The notes under the pieces were generated by a model that was given only the letters and a program-made list of their open reading frames with translations, was not told the DNA's origin and searched no databases. Shown in pieces: positions 45,535 to 63,046 of a DNA stretch of 63,046 bases. The stretch is from Bacillus sp. 522_BSPC. Its GTDB lineage: Bacteria; Bacillota; Bacilli; Bacillales; Cytobacillaceae. Position numbers and translations under genes: made by a program. The first letter of the stretch is position 1. Each line of letters opens with the position of its first letter. The DNA lies in contig NZ_JVDT01000074.1 of the NCBI RefSeq assembly GCF_001076885.1, positions 1-63,046 of the forward strand, in the 5' to 3' direction.

Positions 45535-45567
45535 CTTAGTCTTTACATGGCAAAAAATTTTTAAAAA

Positions 45568-47519: not shown

Positions 47520-47735
47520 ATGGATACTATTATTGTTTTACCAAACATATAATGAGATAAAACTAGAACGACTGATTTTCTAGCCTCCTAGAAAGATAGA
47601 TTGTAAGGAGGCAAAAAATCCTTCTGACGAAGAATCTAAGTTTACTGCCTAAAATAGTTGATAATACTATCTTTTTGTCCTGTTATTTGATAATGTAAAT
47701 ATCATACAATAAATTCTGCTTAAAGGAGGGAATCA

Positions 47736-47915
47736 ATGATGATCTCCATTTTCATTATTTTAGCTATTTTTATTTTATATAATATTAATAGACTAACAAA
47801 TGCCCTATGTTTACAAAAAGAAATTCCTGAAGAAAAACAACCAAAAGTCTTTCGAACGATAAATGTTCTTATTACCATTCTTTTGATTTCTTCCTATGTA
47901 GATATTCTTTTTTAA
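47736..47915 (+). CDS. small two-helix membrane protein, 59 residues
   Basis: Two consecutive ATGs follow AAAGGAGGG by five and eight bases. The product has a hydrophobic helix (IFIILAIFILYNI), a polar middle (LQKEIPEEKQPKVFR) and a second helix (VLITILLISSYVDILF). A strong terminator follows. No family was recognised; the ribosome site and terminator make it a credible gene. Confidence 0.65.
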   Translation: MMISIFIILAIFILYNINRLTNALCLQKEIPEEKQPKVFRTINVLITILLISSYVDILF

Positions 47916-47966
47916 GATTTTTTTAACTAAACAAACTCTGTCTTATATACGGAGATATGTAGAAAA

Positions 47967-48016
47967 GAAGCAATGTAATAGCAGTCCAAACAGACTATTA
48001 CACTTGCTTCTTTTTA
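47967..48016 (+). terminator. terminator of the 59-residue gene
   Basis: A 15-bp stem with one bulge (47967-47981 with 47995-48010), followed by TTTTTA. Confidence 0.85.
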
Positions 48017-48033
48017 TATGCCTTCAGATCAAC

Positions 48034-48123
48034 TTATAGCCAAGCTGCTCCGATGATTACTAATAAGATGAATAGTACTACTAATAAAGCAAAGCCTCCA
48101 CCGTAAACTCCTCCACCAGACAT
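48034..48123 (-). CDS. YjcZ-family sporulation peptide, copy 1
   Basis: A 29-residue peptide beginning MSGGGVYGGGF followed by a hydrophobic helix (ALLVVLFILLVIIGAAWL). The site GGAGGAAT precedes the ATG. YjcZ/SscA-type peptides are made in sporulation and are linked to coat assembly and germination in B. subtilis (SscA). Copy 2 lies 92 bases upstream. Confidence 0.85.
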   Translation of the reverse strand: MSGGGVYGGGFALLVVLFILLVIIGAAWL

Positions 48124-48215
48124 GAAGATTCCTCCTCTCTCTATCGTTCCAGTTGTTCTTTGGCGCATAAATAGGCACTCATCCTAGTAAGATTGCCTTT
48201 ATACGCTATTATAGC

Positions 48216-48299
48216 TTACAGCCATGCAGCGCCAACGATAACTAATAAGATAAACAATACAACGATTAAGGCAAAACCTCCGCCGTATACGTTACCCAT
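48216..48299 (-). CDS. YjcZ-family sporulation peptide, copy 2
   Basis: A 27-residue peptide (MGNVYGGGFALIVVLFILLVIVGAAWL) with AGGAGGTG before the ATG. It is nearly identical to copy 1 after the first residues, so a tandem duplication. Both lie where prsA is found in B. subtilis. Confidence 0.85.
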   Translation of the reverse strand: MGNVYGGGFALIVVLFILLVIVGAAWL

Positions 48300-48973
48300 A
48301 GTAACACCTCCTTTAAGGTTGCTACCATTTGTTTAAAAATTACATGGTGTTTCGGTTTTTCTACTTTCTTTTATTTATTGGCTTCCATACAACCATAACC
48401 AACTTATTCTAAATTTGTTTTTTATCAATATTCGTCCGTCCCTATTGGATGTTATTGGTCACTTGTTAGCCACAGATCTTATTTTAGATCCTCCATAAAA
48501 GAATGAACTAATATTTATAATACTTTGTACTGTATTACCACTCTCACTTCATCTTTTGCCATATAAACCGTAACAACCTTATGAATTTGCTTAACGCGAA
48601 TTCTTTGAGCTCTTTTTCAAGCTCAATTTATCATATGTATTCGCCCTAAATTCGGAACAGGACATATACCCATTTTTTTATAAGGAATGGAAGGCGCAAA
48701 AAAATAGCATCTCAAATAACTTTATGGAAAAGACATAAAAAAACAAAGAATCCAATCTACAAAATTCATTTCCATTAAACGAAGAAACGCTATTTAGGAA
48801 TGAATCTTATACATTTAATCCTTTGTATCAAAGAAAGTAAAACTTCCCTCAACGGTGATTTTTTCCTATCACACTATTGGTTTGGTTAGTTGAACCAATC
48901 GAATTATTTACAGACAGTTTACTGCCATTTACCACTGTAAAAAAAGAGTTAAATAGAAACTTCAAGCAGTTGT
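48300..48973. other. intergenic region, no gene seen
   Basis: About 670 bases of AT-rich sequence between the YjcZ copies and yhaL. No reading frame with a ribosome site, no repeat and no convincing hairpin were found. prsA, expected here from B. subtilis, is not present in any recognisable form. Confidence 0.5.
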
Positions 48974-49168
48974 TTAATTCTCATACACCCTCACTTCTCC
49001 ATCTCTACGTTTTTTCTCCTCTTCTAGTCTTTTCATATAAACCTCTCCTTCCCGTTCAATTATTTCATTTTCAATTGCTCTATCCTCTTTTCCAGTTTTA
49101 ACAGCCATAATCGCACTAATTGCAATTCCTCCCAATACAAAAATAACCCAAAGTGGAATTCCTAGCAT
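48974..49168 (-). CDS. yhaL: sporulation protein YhaL family
   Basis: A 64-residue protein: one membrane segment (PLWVIFVLGGIAISAIMAVKTGK) followed by a charged helix (EDRAIENEIIEREGEVYMKRLEEEKKRR), the YhaL pattern. AAGGGG lies nine bases before the ATG. It is directly downstream of the yhaM remnant, as in B. subtilis. Confidence 0.82.
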   Translation of the reverse strand: MLGIPLWVIFVLGGIAISAIMAVKTGKEDRAIENEIIEREGEVYMKRLEEEKKRRDGEVRVYEN

Positions 49169-49305
49169 TGAAAATTACCCCTTTCTAGTAATTTCTATCT
49201 TTTATTTCATCCTATGCTAGAAAAACTAGATTATTCCCTCTTATCGGCTTTTTTGCAAGAAATTACATTACTTGATTAGCAAAAGCAGCATTTATCTTTG
49301 GGATG

Positions 49306-49341
49306 CAAAAAAAAGGATGAGAACTCAGTGAACTCATCCTA
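49306..49341 (-). terminator. terminator of yhaM
   Basis: AGGATGAG (49314-49321) pairs with CTCATCCT (49333-49340); eight T follow on the minus strand. Confidence 0.82.
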
Positions 49342-49347
49342 GTCTTT

Positions 49348-49554
49348 TTATTTATGAAATGTTGGTTTGTAAAAGGAACGGTTTTCTAACGGAAAAACTC
49401 TTTCCGTAAATTCCCCTGGTTTCACTCGATCTAATACTCGATCCAGCATATTCATTTTTGCATCTAAGTTATCAATATAGTGTAAGATTTCCGCTTCTTT
49501 AATTAACGGAGCTTTTGGACTTCCCCATTCAGGCTTTCCGTGATGGCTGATTAT
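49348..49554 (-). pseudogene. yhaM: 3' remnant of yhaM, 68 codons
   Basis: The frame reads [18 protein letters not shown] at its start and ends [14 protein letters not shown], matching the C-terminal part of the 3'-5' exoribonuclease YhaM, whose full length is about 314 residues. Homology stops abruptly: the codon before the first Ile is TAG and the sequence beyond is unrelated. The break falls in the HD-domain SHHG motif. The 5' part of the gene is not in the window and may lie beyond the right edge. The terminator of the gene is intact. Confidence 0.88.
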
Positions 49555-49638
49555 CTATATATATAAAGTGAGAAAAATATTAAATATATAGTAGTTTCAA
49601 TACTTCTCTTGCATTTTTCTCATATATAGTGAGAAAAA
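49555..49638. repeat. left end of the island: TGAGAAAAA repeats
   Basis: Directly after the yhaM break are TGAGAAAAA at 49569-49577 and again at 49630-49638, each preceded by an ATATA tract. The second copy is also the right arm of a perfect dyad TTTTTCTCA (49614-49622) / TGAGAAAAA. Repeated and inverted sites next to a junction are what recombinase arm or core sites look like. Confidence 0.5.
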
Positions 49639-49759
49639 GTAAAGATTTATAGAGCCTACCTCTATTCAGGTGTAAGCAATTCTCTACCTTTGGCAATTTT
49701 CATTCCGCAACATCCTGTTTCTGTAAATTTTTAATTTATTTGTTCAATTATATATCAGT

Positions 49760-49948
49760 AGAGTCGCAACATAGGAGCGCGAGCAACTTCAAAAAATGTT
49801 AGAGGATCTACAGGAAGGTGACATTATTTTTGTTACTGACTCAACCCGAATCAATCGGAGTACACAGTACTTATTTGAATTGATTGATTTAATTCGAAGG
49901 AAAAAGGATAGCTTAAAATCACTCAAGGATACATGGCTAGAATCTTAA
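49760..49948 (+). pseudogene. serine resolvase fragment (Tn3-family)
   Basis: The frame reads REQLQKMLEDLQEGD, then IIFVTDSTRINRST, then FELIDLIRRKK and SLKSLKDTWLES. This is the conserved part of the resolvase catalytic domain around the helix after the Ser loop. A TAG interrupts it at 49772-49774, the N-terminal Ser region is missing, and the frame stops at 49946. It is a relic, probably from the same Tn1546-type transposon as the transposase fragment near 58.7 kb. Confidence 0.78.
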
Positions 49949-50397
49949 TAAGCAAAAACTGTGGCATCTCTTTCAAGCGGTCACACCAATCATAAGTTTC
50001 CTCCCGTACAATCTTTACTTTAAAACAAAAGGTCCTTTTTCTATGGAAGAATGTATTTATAACTATCTAAAGTCAGAGTCTAAAAATTAGTGGGATAACT
50101 TAGATGAATATTACAGTGGAAAAATGGTATCAGTTGGAGGCTGAAGCGATAACTTTACTTCACTAACGGATGCGTTCATTTTCAGATGGAGATGGAGCAA
50201 AAAAAGTACAAGTACTATATTAAGATAACGAGACCTTATCTACAACAAGGATTGAATCCCTAATCGTTTTAAAAGACACGACTATTGAAGATAAGCAAGT
50301 AATATAAGCTTGTAACAATGATTCTTTGAAATCTTCGATACAAGCTTAATAATCGATAACAAATTATTTATTAATACATATCAATTCGTATGCTGCT
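49949..50397. other. decayed intergenic sequence
   Basis: No intact gene. A 9-bp inverted repeat (AAGCTTGTA 50307-50315 with TACAAGCTT 50339-50347) near the cwlJ stop may help end its transcript but lacks a T-run. Short reading frames broken by stops suggest further relics that could not be named. Confidence 0.4.
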
Positions 50398-50838
50398 TTA
50401 CCATCTATAAACGCTTTCGCATGTATTAGCTTGGGGTTCATAATAACAATGTTGTTTATATTGACCTGCTAATGGTTGAGCGTACCAAGTAGGTGGGCAT
50501 TTACCATATGGATTGAAATACCAAAGAGCATATTTAGAAGGATGCTCTCTCCAATAATCTAATGCTTTTCGTGCTAATCTTTTTTCGACATCTCTTGCAC
50601 CTTGATAAAAAACATTCCCTTTTTGTACTGCTTCAAAAGAATAATTTCCTCCTTGTACTTGAAAAATCACGTCCCTTATTGACCTTAAATTTAAAAAATC
50701 TAAACAATCTGCTTTTAGTCGGTTTACAATGACATTACCAACCATAAGCATCCCTAGTCGTCCTTCTCCTTCAGCTTCTGCTCTCATCATCCTTGCCATC
50801 AATGCAACATCACTTTCGGTATATTTTACTCGTGGCAC
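50398..50838 (-). CDS. cwlJ: spore cortex-lytic hydrolase CwlJ
   Basis: A 146-residue protein of the SleB/CwlJ hydrolase family, close to the 142-residue B. subtilis CwlJ. MARMMRAEAEGEG carries the expected catalytic Glu, followed by MLMVGNVIVNRL, LWYFNPYGKCPPTWYAQP and HCYYEP. CwlJ sits in the coat and breaks down the cortex in germination. The GTG at 50838 is eight bases after GGGAG; a GTG three codons earlier overlaps it. It is here part of the island rather than the usual chromosomal place, so it may be an extra copy. Confidence 0.88.
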   Translation of the reverse strand: MPRVKYTESDVALMARMMRAEAEGEGRLGMLMVGNVIVNRLKADCLDFLNLRSIRDVIFQVQGGNYSFEAVQKGNVFYQGARDVEKRLARKALDYWREHPSKYALWYFNPYGKCPPTWYAQPLAGQYKQHCYYEPQANTCESVYRW

Positions 50839-50859
50839 TTTTATCACTCCCTATATCTA

Positions 50860-50888
50860 ATTATATGAACGTTGTTCATCAGAAATAC
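50860..50888 (-). promoter_or_regulatory. candidate sigma-E promoter of cwlJ
   Basis: On the minus strand CATATAAT (50860-50867) fits the sigma-E -10 box (CATACAAT) with one change. GTATTT (50883-50888) lies 15 bases upstream. cwlJ is a sigma-E gene in B. subtilis. A dyad ATGAAC-GTT-GTTCAT overlaps the spacer. Confidence 0.5.
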
Positions 50889-51014
50889 CTTGTTGAAGTT
50901 TACTAATGAGCGAGTTAAAATGAATTGTGAAAAAATCAGGAAAATAATACATAAGCTAATAATTTCATGAGAAATGAAGAGAATATGAATGATAAATGAA
51001 GGAGGAATGTAACT

Positions 51015-51455
51015 ATGGCATTAACACCTTATGACCCATTTAGACAATTAGTAAATATAAGAAGAGATTTTGACCGTATCTTTTCTGACCTACCGTTTGA
51101 TTTTAGTGGGGACAAAGAGCACTTTGGAAGTATTAAGGTAGATGTGCATGAAAGTGAAAATGAAGTTGTTGCAACTTGTGATATACCGGGACTTGAGAAA
51201 AAAGAAGACGTAAACATTGATATTGAAAATAATGTATTATCGATTAGCGGTTCTATAAACAAAACAAATGAAACAAAAGAAAAAAATATGTATAGAAAAG
51301 AACGTTACACAGGTAGTTTTCACCGAGCTATAACACTTCCGAGTCTTGTATCTACCGAGGGAGTATCAGCAACCTATAAAAATGGTGTATTAGAAGTAAA
51401 AATGTTAAAGACTACACCAAATAATAAAAAGAAAATTGATGTGGAATTTCATTAA
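51015..51455 (+). CDS. Hsp20/alpha-crystallin small heat-shock protein
   Basis: A 146-residue holdase. The N-terminal DPFRQLVNIRRDFDRIF, then the alpha-crystallin domain (about 40-140) with VDVHESENEVVATCDIPGLEKKEDVNIDIENNVLSISG and the closing YKNGVLEVKM. GGAGGA precedes the ATG. It lies in the spore-gene cargo of the island and may protect spore or stationary-phase proteins; that role is inferred. Confidence 0.9.
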   Translation: MALTPYDPFRQLVNIRRDFDRIFSDLPFDFSGDKEHFGSIKVDVHESENEVVATCDIPGLEKKEDVNIDIENNVLSISGSINKTNETKEKNMYRKERYTGSFHRAITLPSLVSTEGVSATYKNGVLEVKMLKTTPNNKKKIDVEFH

Positions 51456-51456
51456 A

Positions 51457-51645
51457 ATGAGCAAATTATATGAAGTTATGAAAGAATTTGATAAGGATTA
51501 TTTGCAGGAGATATCTAATATGCAACCAGAATTAGTGGATTTGCTTATATTAACTTGTCATTCTTCAAATAATAAGAAGAAAGCTATATTAGATGAACTT
51601 GCTCATAACATTAAGTCATCATATATTAAAAACAATATTAACTAA
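51457..51645 (+). CDS. small hypothetical protein, 62 residues
   Basis: The ATG is one base after the hsp20 stop, with no ribosome site of its own, so translation would depend on coupling. The product is helical and charged (EVMKEFDKDYLQEISNMQPELVDLLIL). No family was recognised. Confidence 0.5.
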   Translation: MSKLYEVMKEFDKDYLQEISNMQPELVDLLILTCHSSNNKKKAILDELAHNIKSSYIKNNIN

Positions 51646-52250
51646 TCTTCCGATTAGAACTATCTAAACAAGGGGGTGTCGAATTTGGCATCCCTATTGT
51701 TGTAACAAAGTTAAGAGGTAAAAAAAATGCCCTTACTGTATTTTCTTTATTTTTTGTGAGTTTTCACCTAAAGATACATAAGAAACTATGTATAGATTGT
51801 TGTAAGAACCAAATCTATTATACTAGAGTAATACAGGGTATTTATTTTGAATAAATTCAAACTTCGTTCAATTAATTACCTCGGTAGATAGTATTTAACA
51901 TAAGGATAACTTATCCCCCCCATTCCTTGCTTATTATTGCATAGAGGTAATTTCTTTTTCTACTTCTTCTTGAATTACATTGTTGAAAATAAGTATGCAA
52001 ATAAATGTACTTTAACTAAACTGTTTTAATTCAATAACTACATATAGAAAGCTCAAAAATACATTATTTTACTTATTAAAATGGATTATTGTCTCTTTGT
52101 TACTTATCTTTGCCTTATAAAATCAGAAAATGATTAACAGATGTCTTGTTATTAGAGGATGCAATTCACTATAAAATGTGAATGATAACTTCCAGTAATG
52201 TGTTTCAGTTATTATAGCAGAAATTGTGTCATTCTACTTGATGTTCACAA
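51646..52250. other. intergenic region, nothing identified
   Basis: About 600 bases, AT-rich. No gene with a ribosome site, no long repeat and no clear terminator were seen, apart from a weak stem near 51660-51710 (CTTGTTTAG-type and GGGTGTCG...GGCATCCC pairing) that may end the hsp20 transcript. Confidence 0.4.
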
Positions 52251-53081
52251 TTGGCTAAAAGAATGAACCATGCGTTAAACTTCATTGAAAATAAAGAAAT
52301 AGACTACAAAGAAACTGCAAAAGTAGCTAAATTTTCCGAGTTTCACTTTTCAAGAATGTTCTCTTCAATCTCAGGTGTATCGCTCTCAAAATATATTAGA
52401 CGTAGACGGTTAACACTCGCAGCATTTGAAATTCAAAAAAGTGAAATTCGGATCATCGATGTGGCAGTTAAATATGGTTATGTTTCTTCTGATACTTTCT
52501 CACGTGCTTTTCAAAAAATGCATGGAGTAACCCCTTCCAATGCTCATAATAGAGGGGTACAGTTAAAAGCCTTTCCCAGAATATCCTTTCAAATTACTAT
52601 TAAAGGAGATACCGAGATGGATTACAGAATTGAAAACCTTGATTTTGAATTAAGAATTGTAGGAAAAAGTAAGCCAGTAAAAACAAGCAGAGCATTTAAA
52701 ACAATCCCTACGCTTTGGAACACCGCGAAAAAAGATGGATTTATGCAAGAACTAGTAGCTATGTCATGGAAAAATCCAAAATGCACGCTTGAAAGCCTTC
52801 TGGGGGTTTGCGGAAAAGAAGCCGCCATAACAGATGAAGAATTTTCCTATTTCATGGGCGTAAGATACGATGGGGAATCCCCTGAAAATATGGAGACGCT
52901 TATTATACCCGCAAGTACATGGGCAGTATTTCCGAACATAGTAGATGCATGGAAACGTTTATATACCGAGTGGGTTCCTAACTCCGAGTATGAACTTGCA
53001 AATTTACCTTGTATAGAATGTTATTACGGTCCGAAGCATAAACCAAGACACGAACTCTGGGTCCCTGTTATCCCGAAGTAA
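52251..53081 (+). CDS. AraC-family regulator with GyrI-like domain, N-terminus doubtful
   Basis: About 276 residues. The AraC double helix-turn-helix occupies about 1-105 (ETAKVAKFSEFHFSRMFSSISGVSLSKYIRRRRLTLAA and VAVKYGYVSSDTFSRAFQKMHGVTPSNA). A GyrI-like small-molecule domain follows (about 125-276). Relatives begin with a W-L-x-R-M-N segment. Here N-W-L-K is encoded just upstream but in another frame, so one base may have been lost in the A-run at 52257-52260. Neither the TTG at 52251 nor the ATG at 52263 has a ribosome site. It may be inactive. Confidence 0.7.
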   Translation: MAKRMNHALNFIENKEIDYKETAKVAKFSEFHFSRMFSSISGVSLSKYIRRRRLTLAAFEIQKSEIRIIDVAVKYGYVSSDTFSRAFQKMHGVTPSNAHNRGVQLKAFPRISFQITIKGDTEMDYRIENLDFELRIVGKSKPVKTSRAFKTIPTLWNTAKKDGFMQELVAMSWKNPKCTLESLLGVCGKEAAITDEEFSYFMGVRYDGESPENMETLIIPASTWAVFPNIVDAWKRLYTEWVPNSEYELANLPCIECYYGPKHKPRHELWVPVIPK

Positions 53082-53213
53082 ATTCATATTCAGTAATAGA
53101 ATGTGTTTATGGGACTCTGCAGACGAAACGCAAATATTATACGCTATCAGAAATATAATTAAAAAGTCAATTCCATACTGAAGTGACCCCATAAAGTTAG
53201 ACAGGTTATTTCG

Positions 53214-54026
53214 TTAGGCGGCTTGCAGGGCATGAACTCGGTATTGTACCGGGCTCATGCCTTTTAATTTTGCCTTGATTCGTTTGTGATTATAGTAATT
53301 TATATATTTTTGTAGTTCTTTCTTAAAGTGTTCTATACTTTCAAATTCTTTTCGATAAAGAAATTCTGATTTCATGATGCCAAAGAAGTTTTCTATAACT
53401 GCGTTATCGTAACAGTTCCCTTTGCGAGACATACTTTGTGTAACACCCCGTTCACTAAGAGAATGACGATATTGCTTCATTTGGTAGTGCCAGCCTTGAT
53501 CCGAATGAATGAGGAGGGTATCATCGTCTCTTAAACGTTCAAAAGCCTGATCTAACATTGTAGAAACAAGAGAGTAGGTCGGTCTTGAGCCGATGGTATA
53601 GGTAATGATCTCCCCGTTAAATAAGTCTAAAATAGGTGACAAATATAACTTTTCTCCAAATAACTTAAACTCTGTTATATCCGTAACCCATTTTTGATTT
53701 GGTTTTTCAGCTTTAAAATTGCGATCTAAAATATTGGGTGCAATTTTTCCAACCGTTCCTTTATAAGATTTATATTTTTTCATCCGAACCTGACATTTTA
53801 TCCCTAATTCTTTCATGATACGCTGTACTTTCTTATGGTTGACCTTATGTCCGCGATTTCTAAGTTCATCACGAATACGGCGATATCCATAACAGCTATC
53901 ATTTTCCTCAAAAATCGTTTGAATCAATACTTTCAGCTCTGCATCAGGATCGGGACGACTGAAGTTTTTCACCCAATAATAATATGTGCTGCGTGGAATG
54001 CTTGCGAGCTTTATAAGTGCTTTCAC
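53214..54026 (-). CDS. IS3-family transposase OrfB (DDE integrase)
   Basis: A 270-residue rve-type transposase with HTH_21 (YGYRRIRDELRNRGHKVNHKKVQRIMKELG) and the DDE triad: Asp in WVTDITEFKL, Asp in LIHSDQGWHYQ and Glu in NAVIENFFGIMKSEF. The independent start would be the GTG at 54026. The frame is open further upstream through KQDKAQVVYELRHEF, so it is normally made as an OrfAB fusion by -1 frameshift. Confidence 0.92.
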   Translation of the reverse strand: MKALIKLASIPRSTYYYWVKNFSRPDPDAELKVLIQTIFEENDSCYGYRRIRDELRNRGHKVNHKKVQRIMKELGIKCQVRMKKYKSYKGTVGKIAPNILDRNFKAEKPNQKWVTDITEFKLFGEKLYLSPILDLFNGEIITYTIGSRPTYSLVSTMLDQAFERLRDDDTLLIHSDQGWHYQMKQYRHSLSERGVTQSMSRKGNCYDNAVIENFFGIMKSEFLYRKEFESIEHFKKELQKYINYYNHKRIKAKLKGMSPVQYRVHALQAA

Positions 54027-54052
54027 CGGAAATTCATGCCTTAATTCATAGA

Positions 54053-54574
54053 CTACTTGCGCTTTGTCTTGTTTGGTGATTTTCCCTTGTTTTGAACTAA
54101 GGCATTCAACTTTTTTAAATACGCATTTTCCATACGTAGATGTTCTAATTCCTTCTGAAGTGCTTCCATTGATCCTTCAGTCTGTTCTTGTTTTTTCGGT
54201 AATTCTTGATTGTCATTCTTCAAAGATAGTCGCCCCTTTTTCTTTGGTTGTAGGGCATCATATCCTTTTGTTTCATAAGCAACTTTCCATTTTCGAACCG
54301 TTTCATAAGATGGAATATTAAAAATCGCTGCTGTATCCCTGATAGACGTCCCTTGTTCGTTCATATAATTGAGTACATCTAGTTTAAACTTTGCGGGATA
54401 GGATGTATAGCGCTTTTCAAAAGCATCTTCACCAAAGTACTCATATTGTTTAATCCACTGGTGAAGAATACTCGGATGAACACCTATAAATTCAGCAACT
54501 GATTTTCCTCCTTCATTTCCATTTAAATATTGTTTTACTGCCTGTATTTTTTCTTCTGGAGAAAACTTTGCCAT
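54053..54574 (-). CDS. IS3-family transposase OrfA (helix-turn-helix)
   Basis: About 173 residues from the ATG at 54574, which has GGAGGTG upstream. Two helix-turn-helix units (VAEFIGVHPSILHQWIKQYE and IRDTAAIFNIPSYETVRKWKVAYE) precede a leucine-zipper end (MEALQKELEHLRMENAYLKKL). The slippery heptamer A AAA AAG at 54110-54116 (minus strand) in TTA AAA AAG is in the right place for the -1 shift into orfB. Confidence 0.88.
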   Translation of the reverse strand: MAKFSPEEKIQAVKQYLNGNEGGKSVAEFIGVHPSILHQWIKQYEYFGEDAFEKRYTSYPAKFKLDVLNYMNEQGTSIRDTAAIFNIPSYETVRKWKVAYETKGYDALQPKKKGRLSLKNDNQELPKKQEQTEGSMEALQKELEHLRMENAYLKKLNALVQNKGKSPNKTKRK

Positions 54575-54669
54575 AAAAAAACTGCACCTCCAATTGTTAG
54601 TTGTGTCTAACAATTGGGGTGCAGTTCATACATAAAGAATTGACTTTTGTGAAATTTGGCTAAATCACT

Positions 54670-55836
54670 CTAATAATGACTTTCTTGGTATTTCAATTTT
54701 CCTGAGTTCACTAACTTAACTTGAATGTTGATATGCTCGATACTATCCTTATTTAAAAAAAATGGCTTTTCTTTTATCTCTTGATTCCATCTCTGAGGGT
54801 TCTCCCGATATAATATTTCACCTAACCTATAAACATCTGAATTTATCTCCACTCCTTTTTCAAAAGTCTTTAAAATCTCATCTCTTATTATTTTTTTAGT
54901 GTTAGCAACTAACTTGTTTTCACTAATTTCTTTTAACTTTTCGTTTATTCCGGCTTGTAAGGATACGTTAATTTTATATCTCACTTGTTCGTTAGTAATA
55001 ACTGGAGTTATCCTCACCTTTGGTTTTTCTAATACTATAGAAACAACCGGTTGATCATCTTCAACTATCCACAAAGGAGATCGAACAGTTTTTTCATCTA
55101 TCCATCTTAGACCGTTTAAATCAGATTCAGAAAGCCATCCTTGTAGATGGTTATTTCTTATAAAGACAGCGCCGTCATTTCTTAACAATGGTGCTTTTTT
55201 ATCTTCCTCTTTCCAATTTTCAGTGGATATTTTTATTGAAGGAATGAAAGCTGTTTGTCCAACAGGATTGCTATCTCGAATAAATTGGAAAAATTGAATG
55301 GGTTGTATGTAGGATCTTTGCTTATAACTTTCATTTGGTTCGTGAAGAATCGTCGAGAGTCCAGATAAAGTGAAAAATGATTTTGTTTTAAGTACGTCTT
55401 CAATGGATTCATTTGTAGCATAAAATTGGATATTATAACGTATTTCTCTATATCGATTTATAAAATCAATAGAGGATTTGATATCTTGCTCAAGTAATGT
55501 ATTACTCAAAATCAATGTAGACACATGTCCCCAAAAAAGTCTTTGTTGTGCATCCTTGTATAATTGATTTAACGCTTCTGTCATCGTAATTCCCTCACCT
55601 CTCCCAATCCAAATCGGTGGTTGTTTATCAGGTCTAGCACCTTCTAGTTTAGCCACATTAGAAAAGTCCAGTAATTGAACATAAGCTATATATTTTTCAT
55701 CTTTATAGTCAATTCCAAGTGCTGCAACATAGTAAATATCTTGTATTTCTTTGATATTCCAACATCCCGATAATACCAGACTAAAGAGAGTTAGTATGCT
55801 AATTAAAAAGAACCTACGTAGTTTCAGGATTGTCAC
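54670..55836 (-). CDS. spore germinant receptor C subunit (Ger(x)C lipoprotein)
   Basis: A 388-residue lipoprotein. The signal peptide ends with lipobox LVLSGC (Cys about 25), followed by WNIKEIQDIYYVAALGIDY, a GerAC family start. Domains D1-D3 of the family fit the length. Its GTG overlaps the A-subunit stop (GTGA). It is the last gene of the B-A-C operon. C subunits sit on the outer face of the spore inner membrane. Confidence 0.9.
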   Translation of the reverse strand: MTILKLRRFFLISILTLFSLVLSGCWNIKEIQDIYYVAALGIDYKDEKYIAYVQLLDFSNVAKLEGARPDKQPPIWIGRGEGITMTEALNQLYKDAQQRLFWGHVSTLILSNTLLEQDIKSSIDFINRYREIRYNIQFYATNESIEDVLKTKSFFTLSGLSTILHEPNESYKQRSYIQPIQFFQFIRDSNPVGQTAFIPSIKISTENWKEEDKKAPLLRNDGAVFIRNNHLQGWLSESDLNGLRWIDEKTVRSPLWIVEDDQPVVSIVLEKPKVRITPVITNEQVRYKINVSLQAGINEKLKEISENKLVANTKKIIRDEILKTFEKGVEINSDVYRLGEILYRENPQRWNQEIKEKPFFLNKDSIEHINIQVKLVNSGKLKYQESHY

Positions 55837-57359
55837 TCCCCTTCATCCGTCTTTGTACTATCCCGCGTACGAACATAACTAACACGTTCTCTATAACTTT
55901 TCCATGGTAACCGAAATAGCGCCTTGAAAAGATCTGAACTAGACTTCGGAAATACTAAAGCTAAGTAAGGGATTCCGAAAGAACGTAACCTTGCCATATA
56001 AATGACAATCATAAATCCTCCAAGCATAAAACCGTATAAACCCATAAAAATCGAGCAAACAAGAACAAATCCTCTAAGAATGGATATTGAACTTGCTAAT
56101 ATTTGGTTCACTAGTGTATACCCTGAGATGGCAGAAAGAGCCGTAATAACGATGACCGAAGGAGAAATCAAACCCGACCGAATTGCAGCGTCTCCAATAA
56201 TGAGTCCCCCAACGACGGAGAGAGTTTGTCCAAGAGGGGAAGGTAATCTTTGACCAGCTTCACGGAACATTTCAAACAGGAATAAAACGATCATAAGTTC
56301 TAATGGTGCAGGAAATGGCAACCCCGATCTTGCAACAGTTATAGTCGCAAGAAGAGGAAAAGGGATTTGATCTTGATGGTATGCAAGCAATGCCATCCAA
56401 AACCCGGGTAAGTAGACAGCTAAAAGAAATCCCGCCCATCTATAAAATCGAGCTAATGACATGGGTAAATAATTAAAATGTGAATCCTCTGCTGCTTTAA
56501 TCAAAAAAGTAATGGTTACAGGAGCAATAATGACTAATGGTGAGCCATCTACTACTATGATTATTCTACCTTGTAATAAACATTCAACTGCAAAGTCAGG
56601 TCTGGATGTATCAGCAGAAAGTGGGAAAATAGAAAGTGATTGTTTGGACACCATCTCCTGCAATTGAGTTGAACTAATAATTCCATCAATCTCAACATTA
56701 GATAATCGTTCCCGAATAGTATCTAGCATCTCCGTATTAACCACATCTTCTAGATATAATAATCCCACCTTAGTTTGAGTTCTTGTTCCTATCGTATAAG
56801 TTTGATAAGATAGCGTTGGCGACCTTAGTCTTTTTCGAATTAGTGCAATATTTGTTGAGATATCCTCTGTGAAATTATCTCTTGGGCCACGAACAGATAC
56901 CTCGTAATTGGATTGTTCAGTTGAACGGTTTGGTTTATTGGATGCACTGACAGAAAAAAAAACACTAAATTCCGGAAAATAAATGACTAAATTACCATCG
57001 AAGATCTCTAAAGAGATGGAATTTAACCCTGTTTCCACCTTTAAAGGTGTCCATTCCAGATCATCTTGATTCCATTCCACGCCCTCTTTGAATATTTTAT
57101 AGTCATTTTTTGTTGTCATTTTTTTTAGTTGTGGAATAATAAATTGATTTATTTGTTTTTTATCAACTAAATTCTCACAATAGATAAATATGGTATTTAT
57201 TTCTTGTTGTTCATCAGTAAATTTATGGAGTACAACTTTAACATCCTCACTTTTTTGGTAAATTGAACGAATTTTTTCTTCATTTACTTCATCAGTATTC
57301 TGAAAGGTAGTATGATAAGAGTTCAGTTCCTTTTGTTTTTTATGTTTATTACATTTCAA
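55833..57359 (-). CDS. spore germinant receptor A subunit (GerA family)
   Basis: A 508-residue protein with a soluble N-terminal part (about 1-290), including the family segment GPRDNFTEDISTNIALIRKRL, and five or so membrane segments (about 300-470) with VARSGLPFPAPLELMIVLFLFEMFREAGQRLP and the IGDAAIRSGLISPSVIVI region. The start is TTG with GGGGAG seven bases upstream. It lies four bases after the B gene. Confidence 0.92.
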   Translation of the reverse strand: MKCNKHKKQKELNSYHTTFQNTDEVNEEKIRSIYQKSEDVKVVLHKFTDEQQEINTIFIYCENLVDKKQINQFIIPQLKKMTTKNDYKIFKEGVEWNQDDLEWTPLKVETGLNSISLEIFDGNLVIYFPEFSVFFSVSASNKPNRSTEQSNYEVSVRGPRDNFTEDISTNIALIRKRLRSPTLSYQTYTIGTRTQTKVGLLYLEDVVNTEMLDTIRERLSNVEIDGIISSTQLQEMVSKQSLSIFPLSADTSRPDFAVECLLQGRIIIVVDGSPLVIIAPVTITFLIKAAEDSHFNYLPMSLARFYRWAGFLLAVYLPGFWMALLAYHQDQIPFPLLATITVARSGLPFPAPLELMIVLFLFEMFREAGQRLPSPLGQTLSVVGGLIIGDAAIRSGLISPSVIVITALSAISGYTLVNQILASSISILRGFVLVCSIFMGLYGFMLGGFMIVIYMARLRSFGIPYLALVFPKSSSDLFKALFRLPWKSYRERVSYVRTRDSTKTDEGE

Positions 57360-57362
57360 GAA

Positions 57363-58442
57363 TTATCTCCCCTTTTCCCCTTTTAAAAAGGCTAATAACC
57401 CAATGCTTAAAGAAAAGATAAGTAAAAATAGGAATGATAAATAAAAATATATATTTTGCAAAAAGCGAACAAATTGCATATCACTAATAGGTAGAAGAAC
57501 CATCAACAATGTAATTAGTGAGCTAAACCCTATTAATAAATGTCTATTCTTATCGTTCTCAAATGGAAAGAGCTGTCCAATTATAAACAAACCTAAACTT
57601 ATTCTTATAAATCCACCTGACAGCCATTGATAAATAGAAAAAAAATCTACATGTTCAATATATTTACCAATTTTTAATAATCGCCATTCCTCGTATGCCG
57701 GATACCTCTGATTAGCAGCCTCTTCTGGACCAAAAATAGCAATCGAACCTAATAAGGGACCTAGGGTTAACCCTATCAAGATAATTCCGAGGAAAAGTAA
57801 ACTTCGAACCTTAATGTTGGGTTTTAATTTGTGTTGTAAGAAAAGTATAAGTGCAACTTCCATTAGAGAACCTGAACTATAGATCATGCCTTTCAAAACA
57901 GGATTCAAACCATGTTCTAATATAGGAAATATTTGAGCGTAATCCTTATGAGGAATATTTAGGCTCATGACAAAAAAACCTAAAGCAACAACAAAAACAA
58001 ACAAAAAACCTGAAATAATAGATAGGGTGGCAAAGCTAGATGTCGCAGCAAAAAAACAAATGATTAGAAAAACTATGGCTAAGATGAAAGTTGGACTTTG
58101 AGGGAAATAGGAAGTAACTGTCCAAACAATCATATCCTTTAAGGTAACTCCAATTAATAAAAGGATAAAAACATAGGCAACCGAAGAAAGACCCCAAGCA
58201 ACAACTTTACCAACTCGGTCCTTCATCCAAGTAAATAAATGGGAGTAATTTGTTTTTTTAATAATTACTCGTAGAAAAACAAGCCACCCCAAAAATAAAA
58301 CTCCTGAAATTAGTACAGATATCCAAGAATCCCTCTTTGCTGTGCTTAGTAACATGGGTATCACCATTACATGGTTCATTAATCCTATACTCATCATAGA
58401 GAGAACAAATATAGTAGAAAAACTTGCTTTATTTTGATCCAT
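57363..58442 (-). CDS. spore germinant receptor B subunit (GerAB-type permease)
   Basis: A 359-residue integral membrane protein with ten hydrophobic segments and the APC-superfamily GerAB fold (SWISVLISGVLFLGWLVFLRVI, Pro in MLLPISD). It binds germinants in characterised receptors. The ATG at 58442 has GAGGG six bases upstream. It leads an operon of order B-A-C; the usual orders in Bacillus are A-B-C or A-C-B. Confidence 0.9.
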   Translation of the reverse strand: MDQNKASFSTIFVLSMMSIGLMNHVMVIPMLLSTAKRDSWISVLISGVLFLGWLVFLRVIIKKTNYSHLFTWMKDRVGKVVAWGLSSVAYVFILLLIGVTLKDMIVWTVTSYFPQSPTFILAIVFLIICFFAATSSFATLSIISGFLFVFVVALGFFVMSLNIPHKDYAQIFPILEHGLNPVLKGMIYSSGSLMEVALILFLQHKLKPNIKVRSLLFLGIILIGLTLGPLLGSIAIFGPEEAANQRYPAYEEWRLLKIGKYIEHVDFFSIYQWLSGGFIRISLGLFIIGQLFPFENDKNRHLLIGFSSLITLLMVLLPISDMQFVRFLQNIYFYLSFLFLLIFSLSIGLLAFLKGEKGR

Positions 58443-58512
58443 TTTCAACCCTCTTACTCCATTATTTTTTTAACTATCCATCTCGTTTTTCCTTTTTGTT
58501 ATCATATTTTAT

Positions 58513-58541
58513 ATAATTACCTAATATTTGATTTATATTCA
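58513..58541 (-). promoter_or_regulatory. possible sigma-G promoter of the receptor operon
   Basis: On the minus strand TGAATA (58536-58541) fits the sigma-G -35 box. About 17 bases downstream lies AATTATA, a partial match to the -10 box (CATACTA). Receptor operons are forespore (sigma-G) genes. Confidence 0.3.
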
Positions 58542-58639
58542 CAAAAACAACTAAATAAAGTGTTGTGAAACAGCCACAGAAAATAATAGAAACCTTTAAA
58601 AATTCAAAGTATAACCAAAATCAAATTACTAGGTAGGAA

Positions 58640-58960
58640 CAATCGCGTTCTTAACTACTTACGTAAACATACCCCAAAATTGTTAGATGCCTTAGAAATC
58701 ACTTCTATATAAAATCAGGAGAGTCATTGCTTCACGCTATTGTGACCATTAAAGAGATGAACAAAAAATAATAAACGAAGAATTCCAGAAGGCGCACCTT
58801 TGAACTTTCTCTCAAATCGCTGGCAAAAGCACGTTTATGATGATGGGAATATAAATCGCCAATTATGCGTTGTCTGTTCTTACCAAGTTAAGAAATCTTG
58901 TACGCTCAGGTAACGTTTTTCTCCCGCACATATCACCATTGGATCGGATCGGAACGTACT
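58640..58960 (+). pseudogene. Tn3-family transposase fragment (Tn1546-type)
   Basis: Read in shifting frames, the sequence gives NRVLNYLRKHTPKLLDALEI, then ESLLHAIVTIKEMNKK, then KRRIPEGAPLNFLSNRWQKHVYDDGNINRQ. This is a middle part of a roughly 980-residue TnpA. At least two frameshifts and stops (58707, 58769) disable it. No other part of the gene was found. Confidence 0.75.
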
Positions 58961-59147
58961 TTCTAGGAGAATATTTATTTATATCTAGATTTTAAATCCA
59001 TCCCTACATCCACTTAGGATATAAAAAAATGCCTTAGCCTATAATATCAGCATTTTGTCGGCTGTACCTCTTTATGGGGTAAAAAAAAAAAGAGCCGAAT
59101 TTCTCAGTTTAGGGATTGGGAAATCAGGCTTTTTATATTGGAAATTC

Positions 59148-59179
59148 CTTATCGTTGTAAATCCGCATTTTCCTGATGC
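59148..59179 (-). repeat. Tn1546-type terminal inverted repeat
   Basis: On the minus strand, 59179 to 59148 reads GCATCAGGAAAATGCGG then ATTTACAACGATAAG. From memory this differs in about two positions from the inner 32 bases of the 38-bp Tn1546 terminal repeat. The last six outer bases do not match. It marks the right end of a decayed Tn3-family transposon. Confidence 0.72.
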
Positions 59180-59335
59180 ACAACGATTATAGGAATTGGA
59201 TATACCCTTATTTGTATAGTGGAAGTAGTTTCAAATCTTCAAGCTTGATTTTCAACGGAAGGTAGTACATTAATCAAATTTTACTTACTTAATCAAACAT
59301 TTAAGTTAAAATGATATAGAAAATGATAAATAAAA

Positions 59336-59369
59336 AAACTTTTACACTTTAGTGTGTAAAGTTTAGGAG
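59336..59369 (+). promoter_or_regulatory. hairpin or operator directly before the yhaM-like gene
   Basis: The near-perfect inverted repeat AAACTTTTACACT / AGTGTGTAAAGTTT (59336-59364) ends directly before the ribosome site AGGAG (59365-59369). It could be a repressor site or an RNA stem that limits translation. Confidence 0.45.
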
Positions 59370-59378
59370 TGATAATCA

Positions 59379-60611
59379 ATGAATGACATAAAATTTTATT
59401 TCTATGATTTTATCCCAGTTAAATTTGAGTTAACTGAAGATGATAGAGAACAGGTCCTAAAAGAATTTCCAACTCCTATTCTCCCTACTGGTGAAGAAAT
59501 TTTCAACATAAATGAATTTGAAAAAGGAATCAATGTTAAATTACGATTACTTCTTAATGACTTTAATATCGAATCAACCAAAACTAACAAACAATATTTA
59601 AAAATAAGATTTAGTAATAATTTTGGTTCGATAAATGCAAAATTATGGGACAACCAAAATGCCGTTGAAAATACTATCCCTTTACTTGAAGAATTCTCTA
59701 TTTTCGATGTTGAGGCTAGAATAGAAGATTATCGGGGGCATAAATCACTTACTATAAATAAAATGAAACCATGTGAAGAAGATATTAATCCCTTCACTTT
59801 TCTAGCTTACACTAAGCAAAATATTGAAGATTTTACTGTAGAACTTTTCTCATATATAAATGAATTGGAACAACCTTTTAAGGACATATCCTTAGCTGCA
59901 ATGAAACGTTTTTGGGACCAATTTTCTATTAGGCCAGCAGCAAAAGGATTTCATCATAATTATTTAGGTGGCTTATTAAAACATACAGTAGGTTTAATGA
60001 GGTTCGCAAGATTCATATTAAAACAAGAAGATAACCATTATCAAGCAATTATAAAGCTAATAAACGTAGTTGAAAAAGCACATAAGAAGGATATTTGGAA
60101 TCAACTTCAATCGGAGTCTATAAATCCTCAGCACATTGTATGGAAAGATACTATTGATCATCTTTATACAATGTTATATGGCGCAATGCAACATAGAAGT
60201 TCAGCTCCTAATTATGATTTAGTTTTTACAAGCATTTTATTTCATGATATTGGAAAATTACTAGAATATGATCATGCTGGCAAAAAGTTTGAGGAATTTA
60301 AATTCTTATTCCCAACGGCTGATCATTCTAATATTGAGAATAGGAAACAAACTGGAATAATCATGGATGAGTTAGGAGTAATGATAGGACATATCCCATA
60401 TGGTGTACTTATCCTCTCGAAAATAATAGAAACAGAAAATATAAGGATTTCTTTAGAAGACATACACCATATTTCCCACTGTATTTTATGTCATCACGGT
60501 CTTCCAGAATGGGGGGCATGTGTACGGAATCCACAAACAATTGAGGGTTACATTATTCATATAGTTGACTTTTTAGATAGCAGATATGAAAATACGGAAG
60601 AATTGAAATAA
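59379..60611 (+). CDS. YhaM-like protein: OB-fold plus HD-domain nuclease
   Basis: A 410-residue protein, about 100 longer than YhaM. An N-terminal extension (1-45) precedes an OB-fold (about 50-130: VKLRLLLNDFNIES, FGSINAKLWDN, DYRGHKSLTINKMKP). The HD domain keeps its metal residues: His202 in LLKHTVG, His289-Asp290 in FHDIGK, His372-His373 in CHHGLPEWG, and Asp397. About 50 extra residues lie between the first and second motif (230-280). YhaM degrades RNA and single-stranded DNA 3' to 5'. The ATG has AGGAG upstream. It is the nearest cargo gene to the integration module and may replace the broken yhaM, or serve a different purpose such as defence. Confidence 0.82.
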   Translation: MNDIKFYFYDFIPVKFELTEDDREQVLKEFPTPILPTGEEIFNINEFEKGINVKLRLLLNDFNIESTKTNKQYLKIRFSNNFGSINAKLWDNQNAVENTIPLLEEFSIFDVEARIEDYRGHKSLTINKMKPCEEDINPFTFLAYTKQNIEDFTVELFSYINELEQPFKDISLAAMKRFWDQFSIRPAAKGFHHNYLGGLLKHTVGLMRFARFILKQEDNHYQAIIKLINVVEKAHKKDIWNQLQSESINPQHIVWKDTIDHLYTMLYGAMQHRSSAPNYDLVFTSILFHDIGKLLEYDHAGKKFEEFKFLFPTADHSNIENRKQTGIIMDELGVMIGHIPYGVLILSKIIETENIRISLEDIHHISHCILCHHGLPEWGACVRNPQTIEGYIIHIVDFLDSRYENTEELK

Positions 60612-60615
60612 CCCA

Positions 60616-60663
60616 AAAGCCCAGCTAGGCACTTTATATATCTGCATAGCTGGGCTTTTTTTA
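60616..60663. terminator. bidirectional terminator
   Basis: AGCCCAGCTA (60618-60627) pairs perfectly with TAGCTGGGCT (60647-60656); T-run on the plus side and AAAA on the left. It separates the convergent yhaM-like gene and integration module. Confidence 0.85.
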
Positions 60664-61374
60664 TAAGTCATTCCACAAATCCAAACTAGAAGACTCTTTT
60701 TTACGCTTCTTTATATCAATAATTTTTGTTTCTTTATATATTTTTTCGCCAGTTTCAAGATCAAAAAATTCAAATGCTTCATGGTTAAATAAATTTTCTA
60801 ATGCTCTATTAACAGGCTTTGTTGAATTTTTTGTAGTAGTGAGTAAGTTTATTAGATTTTTTTCTTTCCTATCCTTACCATAATAAAAGAGTTTATAAAT
60901 AGTAGATTGAGCTAGTTTATTTAAATCTTCTAGTTCTTTAATTTTTTTCTTTTGATCAATTATTTTGTTGTTTAACTCCTTTATTTTCTTTTCACTTTTC
61001 TTTTCTTTTTTTAATAATAATTTTAATTCCTTTTCATAAGGCTCCAACGTCTTATATAGTTTAGATGGGTCTTTAATTAGTTTTTCGATTGAATCCTTTA
61101 TACTTGGAAGTTTAATTTCCGGATTCTCATTTTCTATAAGTATTGGAGTATTTACAGCTTCATTGTATCTTTCAATATAATGAAATCCTTCATAGGCTGC
61201 TTTTCTCCAATAGTATTCAGGAATGGATTTATCTAACCAACTAAGTTCGCCTTTTTCGAATAATTCTGTCACAAATTCAGCAAATGGTCTTTTGTTAATG
61301 ATTTTGACCTTATTTTCTTCTACATATCTGTCAAGTAATTCGTCGATTTTGTCTTTTGGATACTTGTTTGCCAT
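60661..61374 (-). CDS. coiled-coil partner of the recombinase (TnpC-like)
   Basis: A 237-residue basic, Lys-rich protein. Residues about 110-165 form a coiled coil (KLLLKKEKKSEKKIKELNNKIIDQKKKIKELEDLNKLAQ). The ATG follows GGTGA by eight bases and overlaps the recombinase gene by 55 bases. The position after a large tyrosine recombinase and the helical character match TnpC of Tn554-type elements, which helps orient integration. Sequence similarity to TnpC was not confirmed. Confidence 0.65.
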   Translation of the reverse strand: MANKYPKDKIDELLDRYVEENKVKIINKRPFAEFVTELFEKGELSWLDKSIPEYYWRKAAYEGFHYIERYNEAVNTPILIENENPEIKLPSIKDSIEKLIKDPSKLYKTLEPYEKELKLLLKKEKKSEKKIKELNNKIIDQKKKIKELEDLNKLAQSTIYKLFYYGKDRKEKNLINLLTTTKNSTKPVNRALENLFNHEAFEFFDLETGEKIYKETKIIDIKKRKKESSSLDLWNDL

Positions 61375-63046
61375 TCAATGTTCACCCCTGTCTGTTCATA
61401 GATATGATCAACACAAGCCCCGATACTTTCTAATAAATCTTTTAATTCCTTTGATTTTGTGTATAACACTTTTTTTAGTTTTATATCCAATTTCAGCTGC
61501 TCATTTTTATTACTATGAATTTGGTCATAGATATGTCCCAACGAATTATAAACCTTAATTGCTTTGTTCTCCGTAGAATCCATCCACTTAATAATCTCAT
61601 TATATTTTGTCTTAAATTCATCAAATTCTATTTTCCAATATTCATCACATATAAAACAGTGACGTTTACAACGTTTTATACTCGCTGAACACCAACCTAT
61701 TTCTAATTTATCCCACTTATCTCGGTCAGGCTCAGCGTTTTTTAATACAAAACGTCTTCTAAATTCATCATTTATTTTTGAACTAATTATTGGTTCATTT
61801 ATTGTTTTAAAAAAACTTGTTTTAAAGTATTGGCAATCCATGTCAAATAATCTCAATAGTTGAATAGTTGAAGAATCAGTTTCAAATTCCCTATGCTTAA
61901 AATAATGGGTTTGTGAGCTGAGAGATAAATGACCACCTAGACGAGCTATTTCTACCGGATGAAGGCCTTGAAGCTTCAAAAACATAAATGCTAAATGTCT
62001 TGTATCATTAGGTCGTAATCGCCTCTCAATATCGAAATAATTTCCTTCTTCACGACTTTTTGAAATTGTTTCAAGATTGTCATTCCCGACATCTCGAACA
62101 GAAAAATTATATGGTGGATTTTTAATAATGAATTCATAAAAATCGTATAACAATTTTCTAAAAGTTTCATGATCAATTATTCTATCATTACGTTTCTTGA
62201 CAAAACTATTAATTTTATTCTCTATAACATTTTCTCTAAGTTTTCTAATTACCATATAAGATATTAATGAATCCGACTCTCCGTATTTATTTGATTCAAT
62301 AATATAGGAATCTATGAAATTGTAAAAACTCTTATCAATCTCAATTTTATCAATAACTTGAATTCTTTTTTTGTTGTTTTTCTCCTTAGATCTAGGTAGC
62401 TCTAGATAATATCGAACTTTATTATCCGTTTCTTTTACTTTAAGAGAATCCCTTCGTATTTTAAGAAATTCACCGATTCTCATTGGGATTTTGGTAGTTA
62501 GTATCCACCAAATCCTTATTGGAGTAAAATATAAATATCGCCAATCTGATGAAGGAGTATTATCAAAAAAATTATTTAAGGCGAATAGGAACATTAAGCA
62601 ATCTCTGCTTGATGGAATTTCCCTCGGTTCTATTTCGAGTTTTTCATGAAGCTCACTGGCTAGCTGTATATATTCTTCCGTTGAATCCAATTCATCATAA
62701 AAATCTAAAAAATTCAATAAAGACTTTATCATTTCATGTTTTATCGATTTCGTCGCTTCGGATAATAAATATTCTTCTAAATCACTAACTTTTGACTTAG
62801 CTAAAGTTGAAGTAATATTTAAAACATCCACTAAATACTTGAAATATGCCGCAATAGTATTACCTGCATAATCCAATAAGAAATTCGATACCCAACATTT
62901 TAATACATCTAACATCATTGTATTTTTACATTCTATATATTTTCTGAAATCTATAGTGAGTATAGTATCACTATTTTCACTATAGACATACCATACAATA
63001 TCTTGTATGAGTAAAATGTTTGTGGGAGAATAAATATCCTTTTTGT
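61320..63046 (-). CDS. large tyrosine recombinase, 5' end beyond the window (Tn554 TnpB-like)
   Basis: The frame is open from 61320 to the window edge, so the start is not seen; counting from the internal ATG at 62918 there are 532 residues, with 42 more codons upstream in frame. Catalytic residues: Arg147 in PMRIGEFL, Arg307 in RPNDTRHLAFMFLKLQG, His330 and Tyr339 in LGGHLSLSSQTHYFKH. The usual first His of the HxxR box is Asn304. A C-terminal part of about 190 residues contains a Cys/His cluster (CSASIKRCKRHCFICDEYW), possibly metal-binding. The size, C-terminal extension and small coiled-coil partner resemble the integration module of Tn554, which targets one site in a host gene. Confidence 0.8.
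   Translation of the reverse strand, partial: KKDIYSPTNILLIQDIVWYVYSENSDTILTIDFRKYIECKNTMMLDVLKCWVSNFLLDYAGNTIAAYFKYLVDVLNITSTLAKSKVSDLEEYLLSEATKSIKHEMIKSLLNFLDFYDELDSTEEYIQLASELHEKLEIEPREIPSSRDCLMFLFALNNFFDNTPSSDWRYLYFTPIRIWWILTTKIPMRIGEFLKIRRDSLKVKETDNKVRYYLELPRSKEKNNKKRIQVIDKIEIDKSFYNFIDSYIIESNKYGESDSLISYMVIRKLRENVIENKINSFVKKRNDRIIDHETFRKLLYDFYEFIIKNPPYNFSVRDVGNDNLETISKSREEGNYFDIERRLRPNDTRHLAFMFLKLQGLHPVEIARLGGHLSLSSQTHYFKHREFETDSSTIQLLRLFDMDCQYFKTSFFKTINEPIISSKINDEFRRRFVLKNAEPDRDKWDKLEIGWCSASIKRCKRHCFICDEYWKIEFDEFKTKYNEIIKWMDSTENKAIKVYNSLGHIYDQIHSNKNEQLKLDIKLKKVLYTKSKELKDLLESIGACVDHIYEQTGVNIEWQTSIQKTKSTNYLTDM

Follow-up and report, generated by a model that had tools for sequence, protein, structure and literature searches.

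The stretch analysed here (the window) is a whole contig, C47, of 63,046 nucleotides from Bacillus sp. 522_BSPC (genome of 5.14 Mb in 291 contigs), and it ends at 63046 inside a genomic island that splits yhaM, a gene of RNA degradation whose product is a 3'-5' exoribonuclease. We consider it probable that this island is a site-specific element of the GInt/SE/Tn554 type (GInt, genomic island with three integrases; SE, strand-biased circularizing integrative element), dedicated to one codon stretch of yhaM and carrying a replacement for the gene that it breaks. The identity of the element and of its site is held with high confidence; that the YhaM-like gene on the element functionally replaces yhaM appears likely from the comparisons described below. 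A sequence-only reading of the window had proposed an island in yhaM with a tyrosine-recombinase module of its own, which is supported, and had labelled it Tn554-like. The label stands as regards site-specific insertion within a gene and a brought-in core, but the module has four genes, as in GInt and SE elements, and is not tnpABC. That account was also incomplete, as the YhaM-like gene at 59379-60611 and two further recombinase-type genes on other contigs were not seen. With a YhaM-like gene on board, the insertion has to be read differently.

The two halves of yhaM lie on different contigs. The 3' remnant, including the stop codon, is found at 49348..49544 on the minus strand of the window; it matches positions 243-313 of the YhaM model NF010007 (E 3.7e-35), and is 76-89% identical in nucleotide sequence to intact yhaM of 12 genus-mates. 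The truncated 3' end reported earlier at 49348-49554(-) is therefore real, and a stop codon lies just upstream of it. The 5' part is located on C207 (52778-53515, plus strand; NF010007 positions 4-249), preceded by two genes that we take, from gene order, to be yhaO and yhaN. It enters new sequence at codons L-S and ends as a fusion frame of 297 residues, 0.6 kb beyond which C207 stops inside an IS200-type transposase (IS, insertion sequence). An uninterrupted yhaM scoring above the family cut-off is present in all 12 other genomes of the genus that were compared, leaving the window genome as the sole exception of 13. The sequence-only reading had named both a 5' part beside the other island end and a comparison with strains having an uninterrupted yhaM as checks, and since the 5' part runs into the other element end and the relatives are intact, both come out for insertion.

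Both junctions carry the same 11-bp inverted end but unequal 6-bp cores, the host's own at one and a foreign one at the other. The terminal inverted end in the window is attR (TTATCTATATA..GTGAGAAA, 49551..49575, plus strand); in a genome-wide pattern search TTATCTATATA followed by GTGAGAAA gave only two matches, attR and C207:53517-53538, in opposite orientation relative to yhaM. Native yhaM extends to 49544, the cargo-end core occupies 49545..49550, and the inverted end starts at 49551; the boundary placed earlier at codon ATA (49552-49554) was thus near, but this codon is already element DNA. In the nearest relatives the site reads TTAGTAT-TATCCC-ATCAYGG. The core at the junction beside module gene [1] (see below) is TATCCC, that of the two nearest relatives, whereas the other junction has TCAGCC (in yhaM sense), which is found in none of the 12 genus-mates. 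Elsewhere in the family, four of 192 genomes have TCAGCC in the context of the yhaM codons, within yhaM frames 309-333 residues long, and it may be the trace of an earlier stay in yhaM of another species. As published, SE elements and Tn554 insert in such a way that the target's own 6 bp come to lie at the IntA end, while those of the site left behind mark the far end (PMC10214605). With the attB core TATCCC at the [1] side, equivalent to the IntA/TnpA-side end, and the foreign footprint TCAGCC at the far side, the unequal cores fit this rule. Longer direct repeats were not evident at the ends. The target site comprises the conserved yhaM codons L-S-H of the HD-domain motif, and yhaM looks like the dedicated target of the element, to judge from the use of the same gene and codons in a second species and from a footprint matching yhaM alleles of other species.

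The part of the element held in the window (49551..63046) is contiguous from attR to the module and runs off the contig, the remainder being on C102, C197 and C207. The large recombinase-like reading frame and its coiled-coil-like partner at the contig end are as described in the earlier account. The former, module gene [2], is tyrosine-recombinase-like (61320..63044, minus strand, 5' end open at the contig end; PF00589, E 6e-4, under the curated cut-off) and has homologues in 25 of 192 other family genomes. The latter, module gene [3] (60661..61374, minus strand), is a conserved fourth gene in the place of GinD, Srap or TnpC; among 14 relatives fetched from the family it was matched by BLAST in 10 and fell in the same cluster of reading frames in all. 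The same order was found in all 14: [1] (about 450 residues), [0] (about 770-1,250), [2] (about 570) and [3] (about 240), with [0] split over two frames in L070. The residues R, K, H-R and Y of [1] are invariant in all 14 aligned sequences, and we read them as the putative catalytic residues. In the window genome the module is spread over C197, C102 and C47; C197 contains [1] together with one piece of [0], the other piece of [0] being on C102, and each piece is joined to a copy of the same IS1595-type element. Because [0] is interrupted in this way, the island in the window genome is probably no longer mobile by itself. This IS1595-type element (L077, approximately 2713-4117), present on both contigs, contains a passenger frame of 78 residues. 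The start of C197 resembles, in our reading, an IS605-type element end that matches the end of C207.

Immediately after the module, 49 bp from the end of [3] and facing it, is a complete gene for a YhaM-like HD-domain protein of 410 residues (59379..60611, plus strand; NF010007, PF01966), presumed to replace the broken yhaM. Its product aligns with NF010007 in two stretches (E 1.4e-19 and 5.7e-7), covering the N-terminal half of YhaM and the HD domain, and matches the solved YhaM chains 9h3f (E 2.2e-20) and 9o7t (E 1.9e-16) over query residues 46-213. It is 27-31% identical to native YhaM. The HD-motif residues are kept, the aligned H, HD and D being invariant in 10 rows, and the stretch CHHGLPEWG corresponds to the exact position at which the host gene is cut. 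The gene is intact although the recombinase gene [0] carries an IS. Scans for promoters and terminators near it gave no excess over shuffled sequence; no relatives were confirmed in viral contigs, and none was found in plasmids at E 1e-20.

The second species is Bacillus kwashiorkori. A scan of named genomes with the alignment of [1] yielded 80 loci, the closest being that of B. kwashiorkori SIT6 (L097), in which [1] is 75% identical and the element lies in yhaM at the same codons. Here the element is contiguous, at about 32 kb, in the order yhaM 5' part, element end with core TTTCCC, four open module genes, YhaM-like gene, further cargo, far end with core TTTCCC, and yhaM 3' part. The three recombinase-type proteins have 466, 1,126 ([0]) and 619 residues. 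Over the aligned module and YhaM-like gene, nucleotide identity to the contigs of the window genome is about 75%. The two YhaM-like genes are 80.4% identical, with a nonsynonymous divergence (dN) of 0.12 and a synonymous divergence (dS) of about 2.8, which is saturated, and the comparison indicates that the gene is under purifying selection. The two copies have diverged to saturation at synonymous sites, but in neither genome have the yhaM remnants lost their open frames; we therefore think that an old element lineage probably inserted twice, independently and fairly recently. The proposal of the earlier account, that the recombinases moved the entire segment, can be inferred from the two ends, from the footprint and from the unbroken copy in B. 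kwashiorkori.

The following sequence of events can be envisaged. Three tyrosine-recombinase-like proteins and a coiled-coil-like helper would insert the element at the L-S-H codons of yhaM, which would place the host 6-bp core beside recombinase gene [1] and leave the 6 bp carried over from the previous site at the opposite end. As insertion cuts yhaM before the last residues of the HD motif, it should inactivate the gene. The complete, divergent YhaM-like gene right after the module, in its own reading frame, would then take over the lost function, and insertion would thus be tolerable.

Pairs of a split gene and a carried homologue were also found in other elements of this kind. For 66 of the 80 named loci with enough DNA, the reading frame at the [1]-side flank was searched for a homologue inside the same element (E 1e-3). 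Eleven of the 66 gave a match, whereas 20,000 random pairings gave 1.2 on average and 7 at most; the reverse test, of inside genes against flanks, gave 11 of 67, against a random mean of 1.05 and a maximum of 6. One match in each test, a self-match in L135, resembles a Tn3-type transposase (our reading, with no search of protein families) and is left out of the replacement count; without it the flank-to-inside test still exceeds the random maximum (10 of 66). Altogether, a homologue of the split or truncated gene is present in 14 elements, representing nine gene families: yhaM (the window element and L097), topB (L138, identical to L072, and L099, identical to L065), rarA (L119, identical to L073, L118 and L128), radA (L143), recU (L139), an MrfA-type helicase (L111), an ATP-dependent DNA ligase (L140), bcp (L167 and L168) and, as a weak case, a YfbR-type nucleotidase (L158; E 2.5e-4, both partners in 5'-deoxynucleotidase/YfbR families). 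Both halves of the split gene were located in eight of the 14 (the window element, L097, L138, L099, L119, L143, L139 and L111), with one target half in L119 lying about 14.6 kb away from [1] on the outward side. Extending the sequence by 40 kb in each case did not reveal the other half of rarA in L128 or of bcp in L167. When ten of the copies were scanned against NCBIfam, all but the YhaM-like one matched a model of the target's kind, mostly over most of their own length, with several scoring below curated cut-offs. Of 12 named loci in which the distance was measured, 11 have the copy starting no more than 800 bp from the last module gene recognised, and in L118 the distance is 2.4 kb; [3] was not recognised in L143 and L158 for this measurement. 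The copy of L099, aligned over residues 18-637 of a TopB of 743 residues, sits at the far end of its element. In L143, [1] contains an internal stop, and this element may be dead. L129 and L166 possess TopB or a TopB-like stretch, yet the available sequence shows no split gene to match; cargo does not always correspond to the target. A carried replacement is thus frequent but not universal, and most of the elements examined show none.

At the topB junctions of L065 and L072, inspection by eye revealed short arms with 6-bp cores. The cores are TTGCAC at both ends of L065 and TTGGAC/CTGTAC in L072, all of which code for V-Q of the VQTPT motif; in L072, on our reading, a different foreign core would again code for the same residues. 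Automatic best arm and core matches for L139, L143 and L111 were not convincing, nor did exact seeds reveal any convincing longer terminal repeats in the relatives. In L068 an element end (4470-4658 of the oriented copy) lies beside a frame, at SAHNHPSGD, that we take from this motif to be RadC-like, radC being the gene used by Tn554.

A YhaM-like gene also stands at the yhaM locus of another genus, g3. A search of the 193 family genomes with the YhaM-like protein (E 1e-25) found it in the window genome and in four others, all of g3 (four of the five g3 genomes listed). In three of these (G003, G006 and G007) a gene 73-77% identical occupies the place of yhaM next to yhaN, with yhaL/prsA on the other side where the contig reaches (L204 9244-10512, L205 9285-10523, L206 4148-5227; at this locus gene names other than yhaM and yhaL are presumptive). 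It is oriented as inside the element, opposite to native yhaM. No module was present in the DNA fetched at these three loci (only 5.3 kb for G006), and no yhaM remnant at the locus in G003 and G007; in G005 the gene is elsewhere than the yhaM locus. As a wider and tentative generalisation, to which we give somewhat less than an even chance, such islands of Bacillota might be insert-and-replace vectors, each lineage homing on one conserved codon stretch of one housekeeping gene and supplying a divergent working version, which could outlive the island and become the host's only version, as may have happened in g3 through decay of the island. In the opposite direction, the element would have captured its gene from a genus such as g3, and the tree of the six YhaM-like copies is compatible with either.

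Several observations weigh against a dedicated element with a carried replacement. The element is not on one contig here; C47, C102, C197 and C207 were ordered by content and by comparison with B. kwashiorkori, and about 0.85 kb is missing between C102 and C47. The YhaM equivalog cut-off of 460 bits is missed by far, with 71 bits for the best stretch here and 94 in B. kwashiorkori, and for this reason the protein is called YhaM-like and not YhaM; with about 30% identity and so low a score, its activity may differ from that of YhaM. The HD domain (PF01966) is its only Pfam match, an OB-fold model being absent, and its N-terminal stretch aligns with NF010007 4-175 without such a match. Moreover, yhaM is not known to be essential, so that a replacement may be unneeded. 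A within-locus match was lacking in 55 of the 66 named loci, and of the 14 unnamed family loci only three (L065, L072 and L073) have a copy, the DNA fetched for the other 11 containing no second one. No copy was found in the 19-59.5 kb fetched for elements in or beside DUF72 (three loci), comGA, radC, floT, an ATP ligase, a C5 methylase, a PP-loop gene, rarA (L069) and topB (L071); the comGA, radC, floT, ligase and PP-loop targets are presumed from their proteins, comGA also from a Pfam T2SSE match.

The absence of copies from so many loci could mean that the YhaM-like gene is ordinary cargo resembling the target by chance, in an element that inactivates a dispensable gene, and the diversity of GInt cargo, as described (PMC5385486), would agree with this. 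Against it, the same pairing occurs in a second species, matches exceed random pairing in both directions, the matching gene usually lies directly after the module, and there are published precedents in bcp, recA and tgl; we regard chance cargo as unlikely. It appears similarly improbable that the copy serves the element and not the host, as a decoy, a regulator or a stabiliser (element loss would leave a yhaM scar and no YhaM-type activity). A carried replacement would indeed make loss costly. GInts often carry post-segregational killing genes (PMC5385486), and in Tn552-II the copy holds att motifs, for which a joint role in transposition has been suggested (PMC12486829). Yet the HD-motif residues are kept, and in three g3 genomes the gene occupies the yhaM locus where the sequence retrieved shows no module, so it need not accompany the element. 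Finally, contig gaps and three insertion sequences in the region (of IS3, IS200/IS605 and IS1595 types) leave room for yhaM having been broken by other events, with the recombinase module as a separate nearby element, but the genome has matching inverted ends only at the exact points where the two yhaM halves break off, and B. kwashiorkori has a contiguous equivalent, which makes this very improbable. An element dedicated to yhaM and carrying its replacement is the reading we prefer.

The remaining cargo in the window begins with a serine recombinase remnant (resolvase N-terminal domain, 49775..49948, plus strand; PF00239, E 1.8e-9), and includes a cell wall hydrolase (Hydrolase_2, 50398..50847, minus; PF07486, E 1.2e-17), an Hsp20 small heat-shock protein (51015..51455, plus; PF00011), an AraC/GyrI-type regulator (52251..53081, plus; PF06445, PF12833), an IS3-type insertion sequence of two reading frames (53214..54613, minus; rve and HTH transposase domains) and a GerA-type spore germinant receptor operon (54670..58448, minus; PF03845, PF03323, PF25198/PF05504) with permease (57363-58448), GerA (55833-57359) and GerAC (54670-55836) genes, all on the minus strand. 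With the GerA-type operon, the Hydrolase_2-type hydrolase and Hsp20, the cargo at 50398-58448 has a spore-related look. G+C content is 28-39% in the segment and 28-36% in the flank; the ranges overlap, so the earlier description of the segment as foreign-looking cannot rest on G+C, and a foreign origin argued from it is unusable. No Rfam family was matched at gathering scores in 40000-63046. In the flank, 47520-48970 is without the PrsA-encoding frame present in relatives (L204 and B. kwashiorkori), and tblastn of a relative's protein that we take to be PrsA gave no match in 45000-49600; prsA may have been lost from this position or moved. In six related loci (L061, L066, L067, L068, L070 and L071) genes of defence type lie near the module, including a KAP ATPase, type I R-like and Mrr proteins, ApeA, an OLD-like protein with a UvrD-like helicase, and FRG (no defence library was searched).

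Mobile elements normally avoid or break genes, whereas the family described here seems to interrupt conserved genes of repair and RNA processing at a single motif, often with a replacement. If true, this would explain highly conserved coding DNA as a safe landing site, and would open a way for distant versions to take the place of housekeeping genes across species boundaries. It would also give a rule for finding element boundaries and targets, namely cargo that matches the gene at the element end.

Tn554 targets radC. The element described here shares with the Tn554 family the site-specific insertion inside a gene and a brought-in core of 6-7 bp, but it has four module genes against three, and its target is yhaM and not radC or a CDS40/yolD-like gene. 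Pure Tn554 membership was rejected on these grounds, the module not being tnpABC and the target not radC. Tn552-II of Staphylococcus (tnpABC) carries a target-gene-like gene, tgl, with a suggested rescue role (PMC12486829). RIT elements have three recombinases of approximately 315-410 residues (PMC10214605), sizes exceeded by all three in B. kwashiorkori, and membership of that group was likewise rejected.

By its build the module is like that of GInt, a site-specific island found in Firmicutes with a four-gene operon (ginABCD), cargo and a short AT-rich far end (PMC5385486); four genes at one end, three of recombinase type and a small fourth, are found here too. GInts differ in being described as choosing the ends of genes or the gaps between them, where inactivation is probably incomplete, and no carried copy of the target is mentioned in the sections of that report consulted (PMC5385486). 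They are flanked by direct imperfect repeats of approximately 10-17 nucleotides; at the ends of the yhaM element 11-bp inverted arms and unequal 6-bp cores were seen. Target replacement itself is known case by case, from recA islands, SE-6283 with bcp, and Tn552-II with tgl; for yhaM as a target, or for such breadth in Bacillota, no report was found in the open literature searched (most subscription papers being outside its scope). The recA mobile elements of Vibrio split recA and carry a divergent recA that has been shown to work (PMC4405046, PMC4334540); they differ from the yhaM element in target and in having the copy at the end opposite the integrase.

A close parallel in organisation is SE-6283 (Tn6283) of Vibrio alfacsensis, which inserts in bcp and carries a bcp homologue (PMC5991714, PMC9345347, PMC10214605). 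Its discoverers suggested compensation by this homologue and compared it with the recA mobile elements (PMC5991714, PMC9345347). No kinship of the module proteins was detected beyond a marginal match of [1] to IntA (hhalign probability 47.6; [0]/IntB, [2]/Tfp, [2]/IntB and [3]/Srap below 1%), although with single-sequence templates, and hence low sensitivity, remote kinship is possible. SE-6283 differs in its target, bcp, and its host group, Gammaproteobacteria. On its plasmid, pSEA1, bcp lies 114 bp after the fourth SE-6283 module gene (module genes assigned by order), and SE-6283 and the yhaM element are alike in having a four-gene module at one end, the 6-bp attB core at the intA end, a footprint at the other, and a carried homologue of the target.

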